64,000 nt of DNA from Incurvaria masculella (taxonomy: Eukaryota; Arthropoda; Insecta; Lepidoptera; Incurvariidae). Every line of letters begins with the position of its first letter. The stretch's first letter is position 1. This document shows positions 2,490 to 61,165 of this stretch, in pieces. The notes beneath the pieces were generated by a model, which was not told the origin of the DNA, made no database searches, and saw only the letters and a program-made list of their open reading frames with translations. The DNA is taken from assembly GCA_946894095.1 (NCBI GenBank), contig OX335655.1:15376001-15440000 (forward strand), written 5' to 3'. The translations under genes were made by a program, and so were the position numbers.

Positions 2490-2636
2490 TTTTCCCTATT
2501 TTATGTTACTGGACTGAGATGGCTGTCATGGTATAAAAATAAAACACCTACGTGGGAAATTGGTGTCAGGCCATGTCCTTCTTTATATTGTAGGGCTACG
2601 TTGAACTGCTGGATGGAAAACACAGACAATCTTCAT
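2490..2636 (-). mobile_element. SINE B, 3' part of a copy split by a 7.8-kb insertion
   Basis: Reverse-oriented SINE tail: T-rich start, then GGGAAATTGGTGTCAGGCCA and CTGGATGGAAAACACAGAC, all diverged from the SINE body. The copy breaks at ATCTTCAT. Its continuation, CATTGCCGCTTCGACC, is found at 10451. In intact copies these two segments are contiguous (TTTTCATTGCCGCTTCGACC), so this SINE was interrupted. CAT is present on both sides (2634-2636 and 10451-10453), a possible 3-bp target duplication. Confidence 0.8.
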
Positions 2637-3480
2637 ACTCCGTTGAATGGGGCATTTGAGACATGCATGAATTCGCCCGTCCATGAAATCTTCAGAATGT
2701 GTACAAATACAGGTTTTAAAAATGAATGACTCAGAATCTAACATTTTTTTTTCCCGGAACTTAGGGATTTTGGCCAAAAACACAAAATATGCGGTATCAT
2801 TTGCTGCAAAAATGGCCCGCCAAATTTCTTTTCAATGTCTAATAAAATGGGTTAAAAGGTATATATGTGTTCAGGAATCCAACAATTTTTTTACACAAAA
2901 GCGAGTTTTTTTTAAAAAATACACAGTTTTCGGTCTCATAAAATCGGCAAAATTGGCCAGCCCAAACTGTCGTCACACATTGTTTTTTAATTCTAATCAG
3001 ATCGATAATTTCAAAGAATCCAACAAAATTGTTACTGGCAACACATATATTTTGCAAATGCCCAAATAAAGTGAACAGCATAATTGGCCCGCGCACTTTT
3101 TGAAATATAATGACAATAAAAGATATAATCGAAGATACTTTTAACAGAATCCAACAAAAAAGTTACACGACCGTCAGTTTTGCAGCGTTTAACGCAACTT
3201 TGAATTTCGCGCTAAAACGGCAAGATGAGCGCGGGTGGTAGGCTGAGGCAGGCCGAAGCGGGACGGCAGCGGCGGCTGAGGCACGTGTTTCAATATGTGT
3301 GATTGCGTAAGTGTGCGTGTGCGCCGACCTTTGCTCGAGGCAACGAAACGCTCGAGGCGCGGGGCTTTGGAGTGTGGTGGCAAAGATAATACTAATAATT
3401 ACTTTGGTGGTGCATAATCGAATGTACCTTAAGCGAGCGCGTAGTTGGGAGCTGGCGAGCATTTCGGATGATTTTGGTAA
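2637..3480 (+). repeat. K, left long inverted repeat
   Basis: From about 2679 this arm matches the reverse complement of about 9743-10412 at high identity, e.g. GAAATCTTCAGAATGTGTAC, GGCCCGCCAAATTTCTTTTC, AGAATCCAACAAAAAAGTTA and CAGTTTTGCAGCGT. The inner 200 bases are GC-rich and more diverged. Open frames of 66-128 codons here are mirrored in the right arm and show no recognisable protein, so they are not called genes. Confidence 0.85.
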
Positions 3481-3573
3481 ATAAATTGGTCATGTACGTG
3501 CATAACTCGTGTATGTTTTCTATGGCAAGTGACACATCTTTATAACCGGCTCGACTCGTAGATTCTAGCAGTT

Positions 3574-3689
3574 GTATTCAGAGTGAACTGTAATCATTTT
3601 ATACGGATTATCACTGGACTAACTATGCAAAATAATACATAGGACGGACATAATCCGGGTCGTCAAGTTAGACCGCCCACTCTGAATAC
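3574..3689. mobile_element. L-family MITE, copy 1
   Basis: A 116-bp element with inverted ends GTATTCAGAGTG / CACTCTGAATAC. A second copy of almost the same length and with the same ends lies at 59990-60107. No coding capacity. Confidence 0.75.
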
Positions 3690-3691
3690 TA

Positions 3692-3825
3692 CTTTTTTAG
3701 GGTTCCGTACCCAAAGGATGCCAACTCCGCTCTCCGTCCGTCTATCCGTCCGTCTGTCACAGGGCTCTATCTTATGAACCGTAATAAGTAGGAAGGTGAA
3801 ATTTACACAGAGTATGTATGTATTT
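3692..3825 (+). mobile_element. A element, truncated copy
   Basis: Left half only: TTTTTTAGGGTTCCGTACCC, a (GTCY)n tract (CCGTCCGTCTATCCGTCCGT), then the CACAGGGCTCTATCTTATGA and TTTACACAGAGTATG segments. It stops just before the left end of the next A copy, so the two A elements are head to tail. Confidence 0.85.
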
Positions 3826-3837
3826 TATTTATTTATT

Positions 3838-4150
3838 ACTTTTTAGGGTTCCGTACCCAAAGGGTGAAAACGGAACCCTATTACTAAGCCTCCGCTGTCC
3901 GTCCGTCCGTCCGTCCGTCCGTCTGTCCGTCTGTCACAGAGCTGTATCTCAGTAACCGTAACAGGTAGACAGTTGAAATTTTCACAGAGTGTGTATTTAT
4001 TTTGCCGCTATAACAACAAATAGGTAAGATTAAAAAATAATTAAAATTAAAGGGGGCTCCCATACAAAAAACGTGATTTTTTTGTTTTTTTTTTCTACGA
4101 TGGTACGGAACCCTTCGTGTGCGAGTCCGACTCGCACTTGGCCGGTTTTT
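3838..4150 (+). mobile_element. A element, complete ((GTCY)n-carrying MITE-like repeat)
   Basis: Full copy. Layout: T-run, GGGTTCCGTACCC near the start, (GTCC)n/(GTCT)n tract at 3898-3936, TATTTTGCCGCTATAACAAC, CCCATACAAAAAACGTGA, then GGTACGGAACCCTTCGTG, the interrupted palindrome GTGCGAGTC-C-GACTCGCAC, and CTTGGCCGGTTTTT. GGGTTCCGTACC and GGTACGGAACCC make subterminal inverted repeats. This family, with its hitchhiking GTCY microsatellite, is described from Lepidoptera (recalled, not checked). It is the strongest taxonomic marker in the window. Its right end is the seed of each J monomer that follows. Confidence 0.92.
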
Positions 4151-4306
4151 AATATGTTGTTATATGATTAAAAAAGTAAATAAAATGTTATACCCACCGG
4201 ATTTTTCTTTGAATTAAAAAAAATAAGTGCATTTTATGTTTCCTTCATATTGACTTTTATGTGGCTAGAGAAAATTGATAATGTATTCAACTTATCAGTA
4301 TATTCA

Positions 4307-4530
4307 CTCCATTAGCATGAAAAAAGATCGTCGGTGTATAAAGTATCGGTGAAAATGCGTCTTAACAATGTTTTAAATTTTAAATGTATGGAAATAAAAA
4401 TACCGTCCATCTTTTTTCGCTTATGGAGTCTTTGACTTGCTATCTTTAATGGTGAAAACCTCATTTCAATCTGACCATTAATTTCCGATATATTCGCATG
4501 TCAATACTGTCAAAATTGTACAGTAAAATT
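4307..4530 (+). repeat. Left inverted repeat flanking the J array
   Basis: ACTCCATTAGCATG, AAAAAGATCGTCGGTGTATA, ATACCGTCCATCTTTTTT and CTATCTTTAATGGTGAAAA occur here and, reverse-complemented and in the mirrored order, at about 8880-9115. The J array is therefore itself a palindromic block lying inside the K inverted repeats. Confidence 0.8.
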
Positions 4531-6662
4531 TCAAAAATATAATTAAAAGGAATTTTTACCGATTTAAAAAAAACATGAAAAATATGTTCAATATCGAAAA
4601 TAGGCAACGTTCAATAGGTGAAAATGCCTTAAACAATGTTTTAAATTTAAAAGTATGGAAAATTTACTGTTTTGAGTGTATTCAAATGCGAATATCTCGT
4701 AAATGAGTCGTCAGATTTTAATAAAGTTTTCATCATTTAAAATAACAGGTTGAAGACTCCATTAGCAAACAAAGATGAACGGTATTAATATTTTCACACA
4801 TTTAAAATTTTCAAATTTTTTTAAAGGAAAAGAAAGAGGCATTTATACCGATACAAATGTTTATACCGTATACACAGATTTAAATGAGGTTTTCACCATT
4901 AGAGATAGCTCGGCAAAGACTCCATTAGCAAAAAATATGGAAGCAAAAATTATGAAAATTACATACAAAACTTTTTTGTGTTATATCTTGTACGATGGTA
5001 CGGAACCCTTCGTGTGCGAGTCAGACTCGCACATGGCCGGTTTTTCATGCCCATGGAGTCGTTGACGTGTTATTTTAAATGATGAAAAGTTCATTAAAAT
5101 CTGACGACTAATTTAAGAGATATTCGCATTTTAATACGCTCAAAACAGTAAATTTTCAATACATTTACATTTAAAACATTGTTAAAGGCATTTTCACCGA
5201 TCCAATGTTATCTATTTTTGATATAGAACACATTTTTCATGTTTTATCAGACCGGTGAACAAGCCTCTTTAAAATTGTTTTAAGTTTTAAATGTATGGAA
5301 AATGTACTGTTTCGACAGTATTCACATGCGAATATCTCGGAAATTAATAGTCAGATTTTAATAAAGTTTTCACCATTCAAAGTAATAGGTTTAAGACTCC
5401 ATGAGCAAACAAAGATAAACGGTATTTATATTTTCACACATTTAAAATTTTCAAAAGGTTTTTAAACGAATTTTAAAGAAAGAGGCATTTATACCGATGC
5501 AAATGTATGTACCGTATATACAGATTTGAATAAGGTTTTCCCCATTAGAGATAGCACGTCAAATACTCCATAAGCAAAAAATATGGAATTAAAAAATTAT
5601 CAAAATTACGTACAAAACTTTTTTGTGTTATGCCTTGTAAGACGGTACGGAACCCTTCGTGTGCGAGTCAGACTCGCACATGGCCGGTTTTTCATGCTCA
5701 TGGAGTCGTTGAAGTGTTATTTAAAATGATGAAAACTTCATTAAAATCTGACGACTAATTTATGATATATTCGCATTTGAATGAGCTCAAAACAGTACAT
5801 TTTCAATACCTTAACATTTAAAACATTGTTAAAGGCATTTGTACCAATCTAACGTTTTCTATTTTCGATATAGAACACATTTTTCATGTTTTTTTTAGAT
5901 CTGTGAAAACGCCTTTCAAAAATTGTTTTAAGTTTTAAATGTATTGAAAATGTACTGTTTCGACATTATTCACATGCGAATATCTCAGAAATTAATGGTC
6001 AGATTTAAATAAAGTTTTCACCATTCAAAATAACAGGTTGAAGACGCCATGAGCAAACAAATAACATATTTAAAATTTTCAAAAATGTTTGAAGGAATTT
6101 TAAAGAAAGAGGTATTTATACCGATACAAATGTGTGTACCGTATATACTGATTTCAATGAGGTTTTCACCATTAGAGATAGCACGTCAAAGACTCCATAA
6201 GCAAAAAATATGGAATTAAAAATAGTCAAAATTACATACAACACTCTTTTGTGTTATGTCTTGTATGACGGTACGGAACCCTTCGTGTGCGAGTCAGACT
6301 CGCACATGGCCGGTTTTTCATGCTCATGGAGTCGTTCACGTGTTATTTTAAATGATCAAAACTGTATTAAAATCTGACGACTAATTTACGAGATATTCGC
6401 ATTCGAATGCGCTCAAAACAGTAAATTTTCAATACTTTTAAATTTAAAACATTGTTAAGGGCACTTTCACCGATCCAACGTTATCTATATTCGATATAGA
6501 ACACATTTTTCATGTTTTTTTAGATCGGTGAAAATGCATTTCAAAAATTGTTTCAAATTTTAAATGTATGGAAAATGTACTGTTTCGACAATATTCACAT
6601 GCGAATATCTCAGATATTAATGGTCAGATTTAAATAAAGTTTTCACTATTCAAAGTAATAGG

Positions 6663-7060
6663 TTTTTTTTTTTTTTTTTATGTGACTGGACATGGATGGC
6701 TAATACCACAAGTTCTGTCATGGTATTAGCCCAACACACCACATGGGAACTAGGTGCCATGCCAGGACCTTCCTTATATTGCACGGCTTCATTGAACTGG
6801 ATGGAAAACACGGACAATTTTCATTGCCGCTTCGACCATCGTTCATCCAATGCGATGGTACCAACCCGGGCGGGATAAACCCTACCACCTAGTAAGTAAG
6901 GAAGGGGACCTACAGCTTAACGTGGAATCCGAACCACGGCCAGCCTCTCTCAACGGTCGAATGGTCACCCATCCAAGACCAGACCGGACCCAGCGTTGCT
7001 TAACTTCGGAGAGCGATCGCCGAAGTGTCGCGCCACTGGGCCACTGAGGCTGACGAAGTC
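6663..7060 (-). mobile_element. SINE B variant with a 5S rRNA-derived head
   Basis: Inserted in the third J interval. In reverse orientation: T-run at 6663-6679, shared SINE body (GGATGGAAAACACGGACAAT, CATTGCCGCTTCGACCATCG, ATGGTACCAACCCGGGCGGG), then a head that is not tRNA-like. Read on the minus strand, 6956-7030 contains CCGAAGTTAAGCAACG and TTGGATGGGTGACC, which match the internal promoter boxes (A and C) of insect 5S rRNA in the right order and spacing. The AGGTT flanking both sides fits a short target duplication. Its body belongs to the subfamily with CACATGGGAACTAGGTGCC. Confidence 0.85.
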
Positions 7061-8879
7061 AAGGTTGAAGACTCCATGAGCAAACAAAGATCAACGGTAT
7101 TTTGACACATTTAAAATTTTCAAAGGTTTTTAAACGAATTTTAAAGAAAGAGGCATTTATACCGATGCAAATGTATGTACCGTATTTACTGATTTAAATG
7201 ACGTTTTCACCATTAGAGATAGCACGTCAAAGACTCCATAATAGAAACATATGGAATTAAAAAATAGTTAAGATTACATGCAAAACTTGTTTGTGTTATG
7301 TCTTGTTCGACGGTACGGAACCCTTCGTGTGCGAGTCAGACTCGCACATGGCCGGTTTTTCATGCTCATGGAGTCGGTCTCGTGTTATTTTAAATGATCA
7401 AAACTGTATTAAAATCTGACGACTAATTTACGAGATATTCGCATTCGAATGCGCTCAAAACAGTAAATTTTCAATACCTTTACATTTACAACATTGTTAA
7501 AGCCATTTGTACCGATCCAACGTTTTCTATTTTCGTAATAGAACACATTTTTCATGTTTTTTTAGACCGGTGAAAACGCCTTTTTAAAATTCTTTTAAGT
7601 TGTAAATGTATTGAAAATGTACTGTTTCGACAGTATTCATATGCGAATATCTCGGAAATTAATGGTCAGATTTAAATAAAGTTTTCACCATTCAAAGTAA
7701 TAGGTTGAATACTCCATGAGCAAACAAAGATCAACGGTATTAATATTTTGACACATTTAAAATTTTCAAAGGTTTTTAAACGAATTTTAAAGAAAGAGGC
7801 ATTTATACCGATGCAAATGTATGTACCGTATTTACAGATTTAAATGACGTTTTCACCATTAGAGATAGCACGTCAAAGACTCCATAAGAAAAACATATGG
7901 AATTAAAAAAAAAGTTAAGATTACATGCAAAACTTGTTTGTGTTATGTCTTGTTCGACGGTACGGAACCCTTCGTGTGCGAGTCAGACTCGCACATGGCC
8001 GGTTTTTCATGCTCATGGAGTCGTTCACGTGTTATTTTAAATGATCAAAACTGTATTAAAATCTGACGACTAATTTACGAGATATTCGCCTTCGAATGCA
8101 CTCAAAACAGTAAATGTTCAATACCTTTACATTTAAAACATTGTTAAAGGCATTTTCACCGATCCAACGTTATCTATATTCGATATAGACCACATTTTTC
8201 ATGTTTTTTTTAGATCGGTGAAAATACCTTTCAAAAATTGTTTTAAGTTTTTAATGTATGGAAATTTTACTGTTTCGACAGTATTCACTTGCGAATATCT
8301 CAGAAATTCATGGTCAGATTTAAATAAAGTTTTCACCATTCAAAATAACAGGTTGAAGACGCCTTGAGCAAACAAAAAACACATTAAAAATTTTCAAAAT
8401 TTTTTGAAGGAATTTTAAAGAAAGAGGCATTTATACCGATGCAAATGTATGTACCGTATATACAGATTTAAATGAGGTTTTCCCCATTAGAGATAGCACG
8501 TCAAATACTCCATAAGCAAAAAATATGGAATAAAAAAATAGTCAAAATTACACACAAAACTTTTTTGTGTTATGTCTTGTACGAGGGTACGGAACCCTTC
8601 GTGTGCGAGTCAGACTCGCACATGGCCGGTTTTTCATGCTCATGGAGTCGTTGACGTGTTATTTAAAATGATGAAAACTTCATTAAAATCTGACGAATAA
8701 TTTACGAGATATTCGCATTTGAATGCACTCAAAACAGTAAATTTTCAATACCTTTACATTTAAAACATTGTTAAAGGCATTTTCACCGATCCAACGTTAT
8801 CTATATTCGATATAGACCACATTTTTCATGTTTTTTTTAGATCGGTGAAAATACCTTTCAAAAATTGTTTTAAGTTTTT

Positions 8880-9115
8880 AATGTATGGAAATTTTACTGT
8901 TTCGACAGTATTCACTTGCGAATATCTTGGAAATTAATGGTCAGATTTAAATGAGATTTTCACCATTAAAGATAGCACGCTAGAGACTCCATAAACAAAA
9001 AAGATGGACGGTATATATATTTCATACATTTAAAATTTAAAAAAATGTTTTGAGACATTTTCACCGGTACTTTATACACCGACGATCTTTTTTAATGCTT
9101 ATGGAGTCTTCAACG
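8880..9115 (-). repeat. Right inverted repeat flanking the J array
   Basis: Mirror of 4307-4530: AGACTCCATAAACAAAAAAG, ATGGACGGTATATATATTTC, CACCGACGATCTTTTTTAAT. See the left partner for the matching motifs. Confidence 0.8.
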
Positions 9116-9225
9116 TGTTATTTGAATTGATGAAACTTCACTAAAATCTGATGAGTAATTAACTAGATATTCGCATTTGAATACGCTCGAAACAGTAAAT
9201 TTTCCATACTTTTAAATGTATGGTC

Positions 9226-9714
9226 AGTATTATATGACCGGTGCAAGCGAATTGCGGGGTATTTCACAGGCGTGCTCGGGTCTAGCGCTTTCGGCTCCTA
9301 TTTGCCCTGACGCCCGAGGCACAACATAATTCAATAAGTAAATATACTTTTTCGTACTAAGCTAGTGTGGCACTGAATCCAAGAACGTGATATATCACGT
9401 TCTTCATTCATGAATGTATGTATAATCCACCGTGAATTAATTTGTGATTTATAAATATGTAGTTTATCTAATTTCAGTGATTTATCTTCGCGGAATCATC
9501 TTGCATAAAAATAAAATAACTCAAATTGTATTCAACTTTTACCAAAGTATTTTACTCATTTACATGTGTATATTCGACGATCACTAGCAATTACAAAAGA
9601 ATAATACCTTTATCTAATTGGCGAATTAATTAATTCAAATTTCACATCACACTTTATAAACTCTTGTCCATTATGCAGTATACTACGCATGAAAACGAAC
9701 TATACATAAGTATC
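9226..9714. other. Inner spacer of the composite element
   Basis: AT-rich, no coding. Contains a perfect 24-bp palindrome at 9381-9404 (AAGAACGTGATA and its complement). A GC-richer patch at 9228-9320 includes CTAGCGCTTTCGGCTCC and GCCCGAGGCACAAC. No repeat partner for most of it is seen elsewhere in the window. Confidence 0.5.
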
Positions 9715-10450
9715 ACCAAAGATAATACTAATAATTACTTCGTAATCGGTATCACTAACACAGGCTAAACCCTTTCTTACCACCGCCACCGTTCCCACGC
9801 CACCGCGCCGCACTGCCTCCGCACCGCGCCGCCTACCACCCGCTTTCGCCAAGCTATTTTATCGCGAAATTCAATGTTACGTTATACGCTGCAAAACTGA
9901 CTGGCATGTAAATTTTTTGTTGGATTCTGTTAAAAGTATGTTCGTCTATATCATTTATTATCATTATAATTTAAAAAATGGGCGGGCAAATTATGCCGTT
10001 TACTTTATTTGGCCATTAGCAAAATATATGTGTTGCCAGTAACAAATTTGTTGGATTCGTTGAAATTATCGATCTGATAAGAATTAAAAACAAATGTGTG
10101 ACGACAGATTGGGCTGCCCAATTCTGCCGAGTTTATGAGAGCGAAAACTGTGTATTTTTAAAAAAAAACTTGCTTTTGTGTAAAAAAATTGTTGGATTCC
10201 TGAACACATATATACCTATTAACCCATTTTATTAGACATTGAAAAGAAATTTGGCGGGCCATTTTTGCAGCAAATGATACCGCATATTTTGTGTTTTTGG
10301 CCAAAATACCTAAATTCCGGGAAAAAAAAAATGTTAGATTCTGAGTCATTCATTTTTAAAACCTGTATTTGTACACATTCTGAAGATTTCATGGACGGAC
10401 GATTTAGTGCTTTGGTAAGCCCCAAATTTTAGCTTCATTCATTGGCCTAT
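9715..10450 (-). repeat. K, right long inverted repeat
   Basis: Reverse complement of the left K arm; see 2637-3480. Small indels and substitutions distinguish the arms. The core AAAGATAATACTAATAATTA near its inner edge (9718) is in the same orientation as at 3382, although its surroundings are inverted, suggesting a tiny local flip or chance near-palindromy. Confidence 0.85.
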
Positions 10451-10535
10451 CATTGCCGCTTCGACCATCGTTCATTCATTGCGATCAGCCCTACCATCTG
10501 GTAAGATAGTTTTGTAATGGAATGGAAGACAAACC
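10451..10535 (-). mobile_element. SINE B, continuation of the copy split at 2636
   Basis: CATTGCCGCTTCGACCATCG, ATTCATTGCGAT, then CCCTACCATCTGGTAAG: the SINE body resumes exactly where 2490-2636 stops. An internal deletion removes the GGTACCAACC segment. The 5' end decays into P sequence. Confidence 0.75.
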
Positions 10536-11186: not shown

Positions 11187-11333
11187 CCTGAAGCCTGAGT
11201 CCGCTAATTGATAACTCCACTTTCGAGCGTTATCGTTATTAGAATCACACGAAATTGAACCAAATGTTGTGTTATCTCATAACGCTAACGCCCGAAAGTG
11301 GAGTTATTTATTAGCGGACTCAGGCTTCTGAGG
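11187..11333. mobile_element. N-family MITE, short palindromic copy
   Basis: ~147 bp with ~45-bp inverted ends: GAAGCCTGAGTCCGCTAATT, GATAACTCCACTTTCG at the left and AATAAATAACTCC.., GCGGACTCAGGCTTC at the right. The same ends bound a longer (~536-bp) relative at 23011-23546. Confidence 0.8.
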
Positions 11334-11657
11334 TTGTAACGAAGACGCCTTTCGCGAACTCGGGTTGATGGCATCTCACAGTCCGCGCCGCATCCGTCAC
11401 GCTTCGTGCCCGCGTTGCAACAGTTACGTTGCGGAGCGGACGAGGCCGAATATCCGCTTACGGCCGTTGTGTTACGTTGCGCGTAGCCGTTCGGCTGTCA
11501 CGCACCGTGCGCGCAGCGCTACGGGTAGCAGCGCCTCTTGCGGTTTCTCTACGTCGACGTCGAGTGATTCTGTGTCAGTGACTCTGATCATTATCAAGTC
11601 GTATTCATTATCTTGTGCTGTTTTTGACCCATATATTAATGCCTATAGAACTTTCTT
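11334..11657. other. CpG-rich stretch, no recognised gene
   Basis: GC- and CpG-rich to about 11580 (CGCCGCATCCGTCACGCTTC, GTCACGCACCGTGCGCGCAG), then AT-rich. A 131-codon open frame beginning at 11365 runs out of this stretch into the A element, so its C-terminal half is repeat DNA. It shows no domain. Could be a regulatory island or an older GC-rich repeat. Confidence 0.35.
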
Positions 11658-11942
11658 GGTTTTTAGGGTTCCGTACCCAAAGGGTGAAAACGGATCCCTA
11701 TTACTAAGCCTCCGCTGTCCGTCCGTCACAGGGCTGTATCTCATAAACCGTAATAGGTAGGCAGCTGAATTTTCACAGAGTGTGTATTTATTTTGCCGCT
11801 ATAACAACAAATAGGCAAAATAAAAAAAATATAAAAATTAAAGGGGGGCCCCATACAAAAAACGTGATTTTTTTGTGTCAAATCTTGTACGATGGAACGG
11901 AACCCTTCGTGTGAGAGTCCGACTCGCGCTTGGCCGGTTTTT
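11658..11942 (+). mobile_element. A element, copy with a short GTCY tract
   Basis: TTTTTAGGGTTCCGTACCCA to CTTGGCCGGTTTTT. The GTCY tract is reduced to CCGTCCGTC. The subterminal palindrome reads GAGAGTCCGACTCGCG, so it has decayed. T-runs flank both ends, as in the other A copies. Confidence 0.9.
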
Positions 11943-13325: not shown

Positions 13326-13625
13326 AAAAACCGGCCAAGTGCGAGTCGGGCTCGCACATGAAGGGTTCCGCACCATCTTACAAAATCAAACAAAAATCTT
13401 TTTTTTTCAATCTTTTTTCCTTTAATTTTAATTATTTTTTTATTTTACCTATTTGTTGTTCTGGCGGCAAAATAAATACACACTCTGTGAAAATTTCAGC
13501 TGCCTCTACCTATTACGTCTCCTGAGATACAGCCCTGTGACAGACGGACGGACGGACGGACGGACAGACAGCGGAGGCTTAGTAATAGGGTTCCGTTTCA
13601 CCCTTTGGGTACGGAACCCTGAAAA
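13326..13625 (-). mobile_element. A element, reverse orientation
   Basis: AAAAACCGGCCAAGTGCGAG at the left and GGGTACGGAACCCTGAAAA at the right, with a (GGAC)n tract at 13545-13570. Two frames of 74-84 codons cross it but are repeat-derived. Confidence 0.92.
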
Positions 13626-14474
13626 GTATCTTGACGGTAACTTCGCGCATGGGTTTCGGAGCCCCAAAGAAAGCCCAAAAGCCCTTGGCTGCGGCGGTCT
13701 TAGGTGAGGAGCGGGCATACGCAACGTGCCGTGCTTTACTTAAGTATTTTTATAATGGATAAATTTTACAATCATCTTACTTGGCCTTTCATCATGCATA
13801 GTAAAAAGACTAATCAAATACGACGTCGGTCTTTCTATAGGCTTATAGCTCGATAACCATGAATAGCTGCATTATTCCTATCGGTTTAGGTATAGGCTTG
13901 CAGTCACTCTCACCGGAATCAAATCGGAAAAAGTACGAGTCCGCTTATAAGTCGAGAACCACTGACTTGTTTTAACAGGGTTTGCATTGACATACCTGGA
14001 ATAATCAAGGTTAATAATTATCTAATTACCTAAAGAGTACCTGAGGCAGCGTATTAGCCTAACCATCCAACGTGGAAACGCTTCCAGTGTTCTCGGTACT
14101 ATGGCCGCATCGTCTTTCCTAGAGGAGGATACAATATAGTTTTTCAATTTTGAAATATTAGATTTTAGTGTGTTTCCATTTATTTAATGTTAATGTTAGA
14201 TTTTATTTTGTATCATTATTTAAATTTGTATTATTACTAGAATTATGAATTAATTAACTAGTACTTAGTCGTCTATGTTTTTAAATATTAAACAAAGTGT
14301 TTTATTCACTGGAATATAAAATTTCTACTTATTATAATTATAACATTTATTGACCGCGAAAAGACCAAGATCGATCCACGGGTACGGCTTTACATTAGGC
14401 GTCAAATTTCATTTACATTTACCTGGAACGCCTTACTCTTCATAACATAAAGCTATCTAACCAAGTCCTGGGTG
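13626..14474. other. No recognised gene; AT-rich
   Basis: Begins with a GC-richer patch, then AT-rich DNA. CTAGAGGAGGATACAATATAG followed by T/A-rich sequence at 14120-14330 has the look of a retrotransposon 3' untranslated region, but no tail or partner confirms it. Confidence 0.35.
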
Positions 14475-18456: not shown

Positions 18457-19070
18457 TGAAGAAAGGGCAGGAGAAGTGGCGTGCGGTCGATATCGCGACT
18501 CCGCCAAATGGCCAAAGTGACCATATAATTGTATGGGAATCCGGAGACGCTTCGTATGCCACACAGTCGAAAAACCGGCCAAGAGCGAGTCGAACCCGTA
18601 CACGAAGTGTTCCGTACCATCGCACAAGATTTAACACGAAAAAATCACGGTTTTTGTATGGGGTTGAATACCTTTACCATACCTTTGAAGTTTATAATTT
18701 TTTTTGCGGCAAAATAAACACACACTCTGTAAAAATTTCAGCTACCTGTCTATTACAGTTTTGGAGATGCAGCCCTGTGACAGACGGACGGACGGACGGA
18801 CAACGGACGGACGGACGGACAGCAGAGGTTTACTAATCGGGTTCCATTTTCACCCTTTGGGTACGGAACCCTATAAATGGGCACCGCACGCGAATGTGCT
18901 CTAAAATGCGTTCATCCAGTCAGTTTCCAATCACACAAGTCCTCCAATTCTCCGACTAGCTTTGGATGTGGCGTGCACGTTTAAGTTGGGTTGGTAGTTT
19001 TTGATAATTGGAGACAGCAGGTCTCATAGATGCGCGCTAGATGGCATATCTCCTTCCTTTTTGATCTGAG
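18457..19070 (+). repeat. P-family copy interrupted by an A element
   Basis: 18457-18569: AAAGGGCAGGAGAAGTGGCG, CCATATAATTGTATGGGAAT, ACACAGTCGAAA. 18877-19070: CACGCGAATGTGCTCTAAAA, TTGGGTTGGTAGTTTTTGAT, GCGCGCTAGATGGCATATCT. The segment TTGGTAGTTTTTGATAATTG (18991-19010) is the empty version of the site where the P copy at 26.1 kb received an A element. Confidence 0.7.
18570..18876 (-). mobile_element. A element nested in P
   Basis: AAAAACCGGCCAAGAGCGAG to GGGTACGGAACCCTATA, with two GGAC/GGACG tracts at 18782-18821. Flanking P sequence resumes on both sides, giving P carrying A. Overlapping frames of up to 158 codons are A/P-derived and rejected. Confidence 0.9.
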
Positions 19071-26141: not shown

Positions 26142-26877
26142 TTTTTAGGGTTCCGTACCCAAAGGTTGAAAACGGAACCCTATTACTACTGAGCAGCTCG
26201 TAGCCTAGTGGCGCGGGGACTGGCCTAGCGTACCAGAGACCTGGGTTCAATACCGACATGCACCACTGTCTTTCTCTTTCCGAGTTCGATAAGTGCATTT
26301 CGTTACGAATGCGAGCTGCTCCATGGTTCGGAATCCATGTAAAACTGTAGGTCCCCTTCCCCTACTAGGTGGTAGGGTTTATGCCCGCCCGGGTTGGTAC
26401 CATCGCATTGAATGAAAAGATGGTCGAATCGGCAATGAAAAATTGTCCGTGTTTTCCATCCAGTTTAATGTAGCCGTGCTCATAAAGGGAAGGTCCTGGC
26501 ACGGCACCAAATTCCTTCGGGAATGAGGTGTATTGGGCTAATATCATAACGGTAGTTGTGTGGTATTAGCCATCCATGTCAGGTCGCATAAAAAAAAAAC
26601 TAAGCTTCCGCTGTCCGTCCGTCCGTCCGTCCGTACGTCCATCCGTCCGTCCGTCCGTCCGTCTGTCCGTCTGTCACAGGGCCGTATCTCGTGAACCGTA
26701 ATAGGTAGGCAGCTGAAATTTTGACAGACTGTGTATTTATTTTGCCGCTATATGACAACAAATAGGTAAAATAAAAAAGTAATAAAAAATAAAGGGCCCC
26801 CATACAAAAAACGTTACTTTTTTGTGTTTTATCTTGTACGATGGTGCGAGTCCGACTCGTACTTGGCCGGTTTTTGA
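26142..26877 (+). mobile_element. A element split by a SINE
   Basis: 26142-26188: TTTTTAGGGTTCCGTACCCA, GAAAACGGAACCCTATTACT. 26600-26877: CTAAGCTTCCGCTGTCCGTC through a long (GTCC)n tract (26618-26672) to TACTTGGCCGGTTTTT. The subterminal GGTACGGAACCC is partly deleted. It sits in P at a T-run; the empty site in the other P copy shows one T-run only, so TTTTT is the likely target duplication. Confidence 0.88.
26189..26599 (+). mobile_element. SINE B, full-length, nested in A
   Basis: Head GAGCAGCTCGTAGCCTAGTG (box A), CTGGGTTCAATACC (box B), GCACCACTGTCTTTCTCTTT, then the body and CATCCATGTCAGGTCGCATA with an A-run. Flanks ACTGA / ACTAA fit a short, slightly decayed target duplication from ATTACTAAGC in A. 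Confidence 0.92.
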
Positions 26878-51153: not shown

Positions 51154-51436
51154 GTTTTTAGGGTTCCGTACCTAAAGGGTGCCAAGGGAACCCGCCCGTC
51201 CGTCCGTCCGTCCGTCCGTCACAGGGCTGTATCTCATGAACCGTAATAGATAGGCAGCTGAATTTTTAACAGAGTATGTTTTTATTTTGCCGCTATAACA
51301 ACAAATAGGTAAGATTTAAAATAATAATAATTAAAGGGGGTGCTCATACAAAAAACTTATTTTTTTGTGTTAAATCTTGTTCGATGGTACGGAACCCCCT
51401 TCGTGTGCGAGCCCGACTCGCACTTGGCCGGCTTTA
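51154..51436 (+). mobile_element. A element
   Basis: TTTTTAGGGTTCCGTACCTA to CGCACTTGGCCGGCTTTATA; GTCC tract at 51193-51218; GTGCGAGCCCGACTCGCAC palindrome. Confidence 0.9.
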
Positions 51437-59989: not shown

Positions 59990-60107
59990 GTATTCAGAGT
60001 GAACCTGTCAAAACTTAGTACGGGATTAGCGCTGGACTAACGATACAAAAACCGGTTTAGTCCGCCATCTATACGCGTACTAAAGTAAGTTCGCCCACTC
60101 TGAATAC
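59990..60107. mobile_element. L-family MITE, copy 2
   Basis: GTATTCAGAGTGAACCTGTC, GCGCTGGACTAACGATAC and GTTCGCCCACTCTGAATAC. 118 bp versus 116 bp for copy 1 at 3574. Confidence 0.82.
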
Positions 60108-61165
60108 TGCTGATAGAGTTTGACAGCTTCGCATGCGAGAACTTCTCGTTTCCCATGAGCATTAAAACATGTGAATACAAACTTCGTTTGCTCGGTGATC
60201 GCAGCGTCCTGATCGATCGATGCAGGTCAAGGCTTCGCGAGGCATAGGTACACGCAGAAATTATATGATAAGTTCGAGGCGAAGTTTTGACGAAGGCAAA
60301 TAAACACGCTTCAGAGCCAGGGTTGCGCACCGGTGTGTGGCCCCGAAACGAGTTCCCACCGCTTACACTATATTCGCGCCAATTTGATTGTGCATCAACT
60401 CAATTAGCGTAGCGCCAAATGTTAGCTAACGCGCTAACGTTTGCTCCAGATAGCGGCGCTTTTCGCACGTTGCATCGCACGGTCGCACATATGGTCCGGG
60501 TGGTGTAACGGAGTGCGAACGCTTGAATTGGAACGCACGACATATTTCTCATGTTACCCCCATTTCGTCAGTATCAGTTTAAAAAAAAATCCAGGCACAA
60601 ATTAGTGGATCTACACCAATAGCCAAGGCTGTGGCAAGATGCTAAGCACACATATTTATCTTCATATGCAATATCTATTCAAGCGGGCGCCAATAATCTC
60701 TGCCCCCACCCACCTGACTCACCCGTTAAACTCGGGTTGGGCAATAGGACATGGCACGGCGCTCTTGCGTCGCTGCGTGCAATGGAAAACCCACCCACGG
60801 CCTATCGCGGATTTCATTCTGTATCATCTCTGCTTATTTTTGTTACATATAGGAAATTGATTACCTCCCTTAACATGATCGCAAGTAACGTTGTTGACTA
60901 GCCTCTCAATTTTTACTACATTGCCACCGTGTTAGTGTATGAACCGTAGTGCTAAATTTTAATAGCTCAGCCTCGGTATCCAGTGCCGCGACGCCTTGCC
61001 GTTCGATTATCGAGGTGAGGTAACTATGGGCATGGTCGGGTTTCGGATAGATGACGTTTATCTATGCCATTATCGACCGTTGAGGCTTGCCGTGGATCGG
61101 ATTTTGCGTACTTTTTTTTTGTGGTGGCCGATGAGAGAAGGTGCGGCAAGCAAGCGTGACTAAAG
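60108..61165. other. No recognised gene; clustered CAATTAGCG-like motifs
   Basis: 60360-60500 has GCGCCAATTTGATTG, CAACTCAATTAGCGTAGCGC, CAAATGTTAGCTAACGCGCT, CCAGATAGCGGCGC, comparable with the island at 50.1-50.47 kb. Possible enhancer. Frames of 73-97 codons lack domains. Confidence 0.35.

Follow-up and report, generated by a model that had tools for sequence, protein, structure and literature searches.

In a 64,000-nucleotide window of the genome of the moth Incurvaria masculella (contig OX335655.1, positions 15,376,001 to 15,440,000 of the forward strand), a short interspersed nuclear element (SINE) is interrupted by an insert bounded by long inverted arms (K), inside which lie miniature inverted-repeat transposable elements (MITEs), a second pair of inverted repeats and a large tandem array. 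An initial annotation of the window had placed 7,814 bp between the two SINE parts and suggested that they form one large mobile unit, and both proposals hold: the K arm recurs in all 40 matches scored in the genome, the left end is found at 218 places and a 3-bp target duplication accompanies 13 of 13 copies. The family to which the insert belongs has fixed ends, a 3-bp duplication, dispersed copies, arms and array that occur as one unit, and no long open frame. The block is therefore very probably a single member of a DNA transposon family that is young, present in many copies, non-autonomous and of foldback anatomy.

Boundaries of the insert and its dispersal

The element occupies window positions 2636-10449, and the target duplication of this copy is TCA (2633-2635 and 10450-10452) rather than CAT, which the initial annotation had put forward. 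When the flanks are joined with one TCA kept, they align to the SINE at 6655-7065 over 146 bp (82%) without a break at the junction, which bears out the reading of the flanks as a single interrupted SINE. A second copy of the family, L018, also lies within a SINE, at a different SINE position, and closing that site with a single duplication likewise lets the alignment run through the junction. In total, 13 copies, all known from the genome assembly alone, were read at both ends: the window copy, 10 that were fetched and 2 more. Their termini, TACTCC...GGCCTA, agree in 13/13 (with the last 4 bp missing in L010), and each copy has an identical 3-bp duplication at its two ends (AAG, CTG, AGT, TTT, ATA, CTT, TTA, AAC, ATA, TAA, TCA, TAT and CTA). 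A or T occupies the middle position in 11 of these 13, as it does in 24 of 30 further left flanks. Recurrent outer boundaries with a constant duplication length had been named in the initial annotation as the mark of one mobile unit, and the same ends with 3 bp are what all 13 copies have.

The genome searched was the window's own (552 Mb in 31 contigs). Its 218 places with the 18-bp left end, at no more than one mismatch, compare with 0 for the control, which excludes chance. With the left arm as query there were 484 candidates; identity was 99-100% in each of the 40 that were scored, of which 39 matched along the full query and the other began at its second base. The ends of the copies are about 1% apart (mean pairwise divergence 0.8% in the leftmost 1,000 bp and 1.2% in the rightmost 620 bp, n=11), pointing to a recent burst. 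Whole copies, of which 11 were available, range from 4.7 to 9.7 kb with a mean of 7.1 kb, and this variation follows the number of array units and nested insertions. At 7.1 kb for each of the 218 places, the family would amount to about 1.5 Mb or 0.3% of the genome, which is on the high side. K arms confined to this locus, or parts occurring independently elsewhere with differing boundaries, had been named in the initial annotation as signs of stepwise accretion; instead, arms, inner repeats and array stand together in 11/11 whole copies.

Table 1. Position of the element, its component parts and the interrupted SINE, in window coordinates
Feature	Position	Strand	Remark
Whole mobile element, 7,814 bp, 5'-TACTCC...GGCCTA-3'	2636..10449	+	Termini recurring in 13/13 copies
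Interrupted SINE, left part, ends in left TCA (2633-2635)	2523..2635	+	
Interrupted SINE, right part, opens with right TCA (10450-10452)	10450..10485	+	
Left terminal inverted repeat	2636..2653	+	12/18 positions common to right; 218 genomic copies at <=1 mismatch
Right terminal inverted repeat	10432..10449	-	
Left long arm (K), built of about four diverged repeats of 140 bp	2636..3275	+	
Right long arm	9810..10449	-	Best-matched part 9831-10405
Short MITE-like insertion, inverted ends GTATTCAGAGT/ACTCTGAATAC (ends by eye)	3572..3693	.	Copy at 59990-60111, 72% match
Element A, truncated copy	3694..3826	+	
Element A, (GTCC)n tract and hairpin 3' end (hairpin by eye)	3845..4145	+	Between T5 tracts 3840-3844 and 4146-4150
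Left inner inverted repeat	4306..4767	+	
Tandem array	4972..9002	+	
SINE nested in array	6663..7061	-	Only in window copy among 11 whole copies
Right inner inverted repeat	8637..9107	-	

Arms, inner repeats and array

The long inverted arms and the inner inverted repeats noticed at the outset are both present, although their sizes had to be revised. The arms align over about 0.6 kb (2670-3243 against 9831-10405, 575 bp, 91.7%) and not the ~0.75 kb first assigned to them, and the inner repeats, first put at ~200 bp, extend over 473 bp at 85% (4306-4767 against 8637-9107). The inner pair is found in 11/11 whole copies, with the left member partly deleted in L009. The left arm has a periodicity of ~140 bp (element positions 35-400 against 175-531, 60%), and this self-match scores 56.8 bits, whereas none of 200 dinucleotide shuffles exceeds 29.7. 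Within it, the motif RGAATCYAACA recurs at window positions 2733, 2874, 3015 and 3146 (element positions 98, 239, 380 and 511); in the right arm it lies at 108, 250 and 522, counted from the right end.

The divergence between the two arms is well above that between copies, and 65 of the 74 positions that distinguish the arms are fixed in all 11 whole copies; hence, the arm pair predates the burst. These differences are unevenly spread: the first 100 bp hold 13, positions 100-199 none and positions 200-299 two, followed by 8, 14 and 15, and by 22/59 at the inner end. Gene conversion would fit this distribution, as would constraint on the subterminal segment, and the data do not separate the two. 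Just inside the inverted arms there is an exact 24-bp direct match (3381-3404 and 9717-9740), and a perfect 24-bp palindrome lies within the element at 9381-9404.

The array repeats at a spacing of about 612-650 bp, and in the one unit examined the hairpin from the 3' end of A is combined with a near-palindrome of ~360 bp and a linker. From 3 to 9 hairpin ends, A's own included, and from 2 to 8 array repeats are found per element. A search of the array against Rfam gave two sub-threshold matches only (E 0.48). Among the 43 units that allowed comparison within as well as between elements, as counted from the listed comparisons with tails and partnerless units left out, 36 are nearer to a unit in another element than to any in the same one, 5 (in L012 and L016) have their nearest match inside the same element and 2 are ties. 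This distribution implies that distinct units, mostly around 90-92% alike, existed before the burst; since then, entire units have been added to the array and removed from it.

The MITE and element A, like the array, were aboard before the burst, and the SINE at 6663-7061 arrived later. On the minus strand the start of this SINE resembles, by eye, what we take to be the inner control region of 5S rRNA; Rfam returned no match for the SINE, 5S included. Full A is absent from four of eight copies chosen for their odd-looking early sequence (L038, L045, L046 and L048), in which the site is a single T5 tract, and a fifth, L037, lacks a larger stretch than A. We take A to be a passenger whose insertion into T5 took place within one sublineage, and deletion between the two T5 tracts is a possible alternative for the copies that are without it. 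Since the array SINE is private to the window copy and A is missing in some copies, some change inside the lineage has been stepwise. Many further copies of A, with its (GTCC)n tract, occur elsewhere in the window, including those at 11660-11942, 13326-13628, 18570-18877, 26637-26875 and 51192-51435, and MITE-like palindromic stretches are discernible by eye at 17-190 and 11196-11335.

Coding capacity and the search for an autonomous partner

The longest stop-to-stop frame comprises 132 amino acids in the window copy and 140 in any of the 11 whole copies. The former (left, 2670-3066) and the latter (right) both lie in the arms, represent the same arm sequence and are present in many, not all, copies. 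None of the six window frames scanned, the left-arm 132-residue frame among them, matches Pfam at cutoff (best sub-cutoff E 0.055), in line with the initial annotation, which had recognised no transposase. The family is thus non-autonomous as far as seen. This statement covers part of the 218 left ends: of the 100 that were listed, 30 were read to 1.5 kb, 60 were sampled by an inner piece and 4 were recovered as whole copies. All 30 of those read for their first 1.5 kb match the family over at least 1,010 bp. A 401-bp piece taken ~1.6-2.0 kb into the 60 others belongs to the family in 56 cases; the other 4 are accounted for by nested insertions in L129 and L132 and by L130 and L131, which are broken off after 101 and 90 bp, respectively. 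The insertion in L129, at about 1547-2830, contains a 350-residue open frame resembling, by eye only, a mariner transposase, and L130 has a frame that looks, again by eye only, like the reverse transcriptase of a long interspersed nuclear element (LINE).

Relatives with altered ends were sought with TASKCCRWTGAATGY, which occurs at 23 places as against 13 for the control, near chance. Of these, 17 were fetched, and none has arm sequence past the tip, the matches being only to SINE, A or MITE parts. The exact ends of the element are absent from viral contigs.

Affinities, mechanism and competing explanations

Terminal inverted repeats (12/18) joined to a constant 3-bp duplication (13/13) are the features of a cut-and-paste transposon, and a variable middle enclosed by long inverted arms that contain tandem repeats is characteristic of the foldback class. 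The element is structurally a foldback, and it probably works like one. It is best read as a new foldback-type cut-and-paste family that is moved by a transposase made elsewhere. Such an enzyme, supplied in trans, would read the TA..CC..TGAATG..GC tips and perhaps the 140-bp arm repeats too, and the element would be cut out and pasted at target cuts staggered by 3 bp. The array would not be needed for movement, and its length could change via unequal recombination or repair slippage.

Several observations weigh against this reading. No autonomous copy or transposase was found in the whole copies or in the 90 left ends, out of 218, that were partly sampled, so that one may have been missed, and excision of the element was not seen. 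The outermost 34-44 bp of the arms are poorly matched, leaving a short strict terminal repeat (12/18). The right end of L010 is without its final 4 bp, and its duplication was read on that assumption. Finally, 2 of the 60 left ends sampled by the inner piece (L130 and L131) are broken off after 90-101 bp, so that 218 overstates the number of whole copies and the genome share given above lies on the upper side.

No lepidopteran foldback of this kind was found in the literature, and "new" is meant relative to the papers searched, not to Repbase or Dfam. PIF/Harbinger elements duplicate TWA, which is matched by just 2 of the 13 duplications here. In the papers searched, foldbacks are mostly assigned to Mutator, and Tetris of Drosophila virilis, with duplications of 8-10 bp, resembles the present element in being non-autonomous, in its long arms with tandem repeats, in its variable non-coding middle and in the failure to find its transposase (PMC4079207). 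It differs in an arm repeat of 220 bp, as against about 140 bp here, and in three complete copies, as against left ends at 218 places (PMC4079207); in the present element, a second inverted pair surrounds a palindromic array. A foldback of Mutator type would need an 8-10-bp duplication (PMC4079207), and the 3 bp in 13/13 copies do not agree with this. Galileo, a P element, is likewise foldback-like with long inverted arms (PMC4079207), but the P superfamily to which it belongs makes 7-8-bp duplications (PMC5199201), again in conflict with 3 bp in 13/13. Tc4 combines a fold-back structure with a 3-bp duplication, both as here, but it duplicates TNA within CTNAG (PMC11071193), and TNA accounts for only 3 of our 13. 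IS3EU/GingerRoot elements share TA..TA termini with TACTCC...GGCCTA but have a 6-bp duplication instead of 3 bp (PMC10045372).

As a non-autonomous element that disperses a tandem array, the family also recalls the satellite-carrying MITE miDNA4 of Xenopus; elements of that type are short MITEs, whereas this one is a 4.7-9.7-kb foldback type with a palindromic unit (PMC9659126). A is probably a lepidopteran (GTCY)n microsatellite MITE (cited in PMC9659126), to which it is likened by description and not by sequence; here A is a passenger and not the mobile unit.

Zator and the bacterial ISAzo13 (PMC10045372) as well as Academ in insects (PMC5199201) duplicate 3 bp, like the present element. We give roughly even chances to the proposition that the family belongs to Zator or Academ and that the transposase is still in the genome, a likeness judged by duplication length. 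A bolder alternative, which we consider unlikely, is that the enzyme belongs to a transposase lineage with which no foldback has so far been linked, or to one not yet described, with TA..TA tips, 3-bp duplications lacking a strict motif and recognition via the 140-bp subterminal repeats.

Other explanations would deny that the block is a single cut-and-paste element. K, the MITE, A and the array could each have been inserted independently at one locus, so that the nesting is merely apparent, and the private array SINE and the copies lacking A are what such stepwise accretion would leave; yet the whole order recurs elsewhere with the same outer ends and duplications, and because the boundaries recur in 13/13 copies, accretion at the window locus fails and is highly improbable. 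A Helitron- or Helentron-like rolling-circle element, with array units ending in A's hairpin, could be suspected from the tandem arrays known in Helentrons (PMC7492417) and from the hairpin seen by eye at the end of A. Such elements are described as making no target duplication (PMC9659126), whereas all 13 copies have one, and the ends of the element are inverted repeats; we regard this origin as very improbable for the element as a whole, a judgement that does not extend to the passenger A. Long inverted repeats and arrays are difficult to assemble, and an inverted join made in error, with the array between collapsed, might in principle mimic the architecture. An artefact of this kind would have to be repeated in 11 whole copies whose flanks are unrelated and whose duplications match, and to reproduce 65 fixed arm-arm differences across them, making it very improbable.

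Foldbacks help to make inversions and satellite DNA in Drosophila. Those described in the papers searched are mostly of Mutator or P affinity, and a foldback family that duplicates 3 bp and has expanded recently broadens the set of transposases that might drive foldback architecture. The copies, about 1% apart and bearing 2 to 8 array repeats, form a natural series for following the growth and shrinkage of a palindromic array, and their numerous long inverted repeats may act as inversion breakpoints. If the transposase does represent a new lineage, the family would be of a foldback type that scatters preformed seeds of satellite DNA through the genome of a moth.

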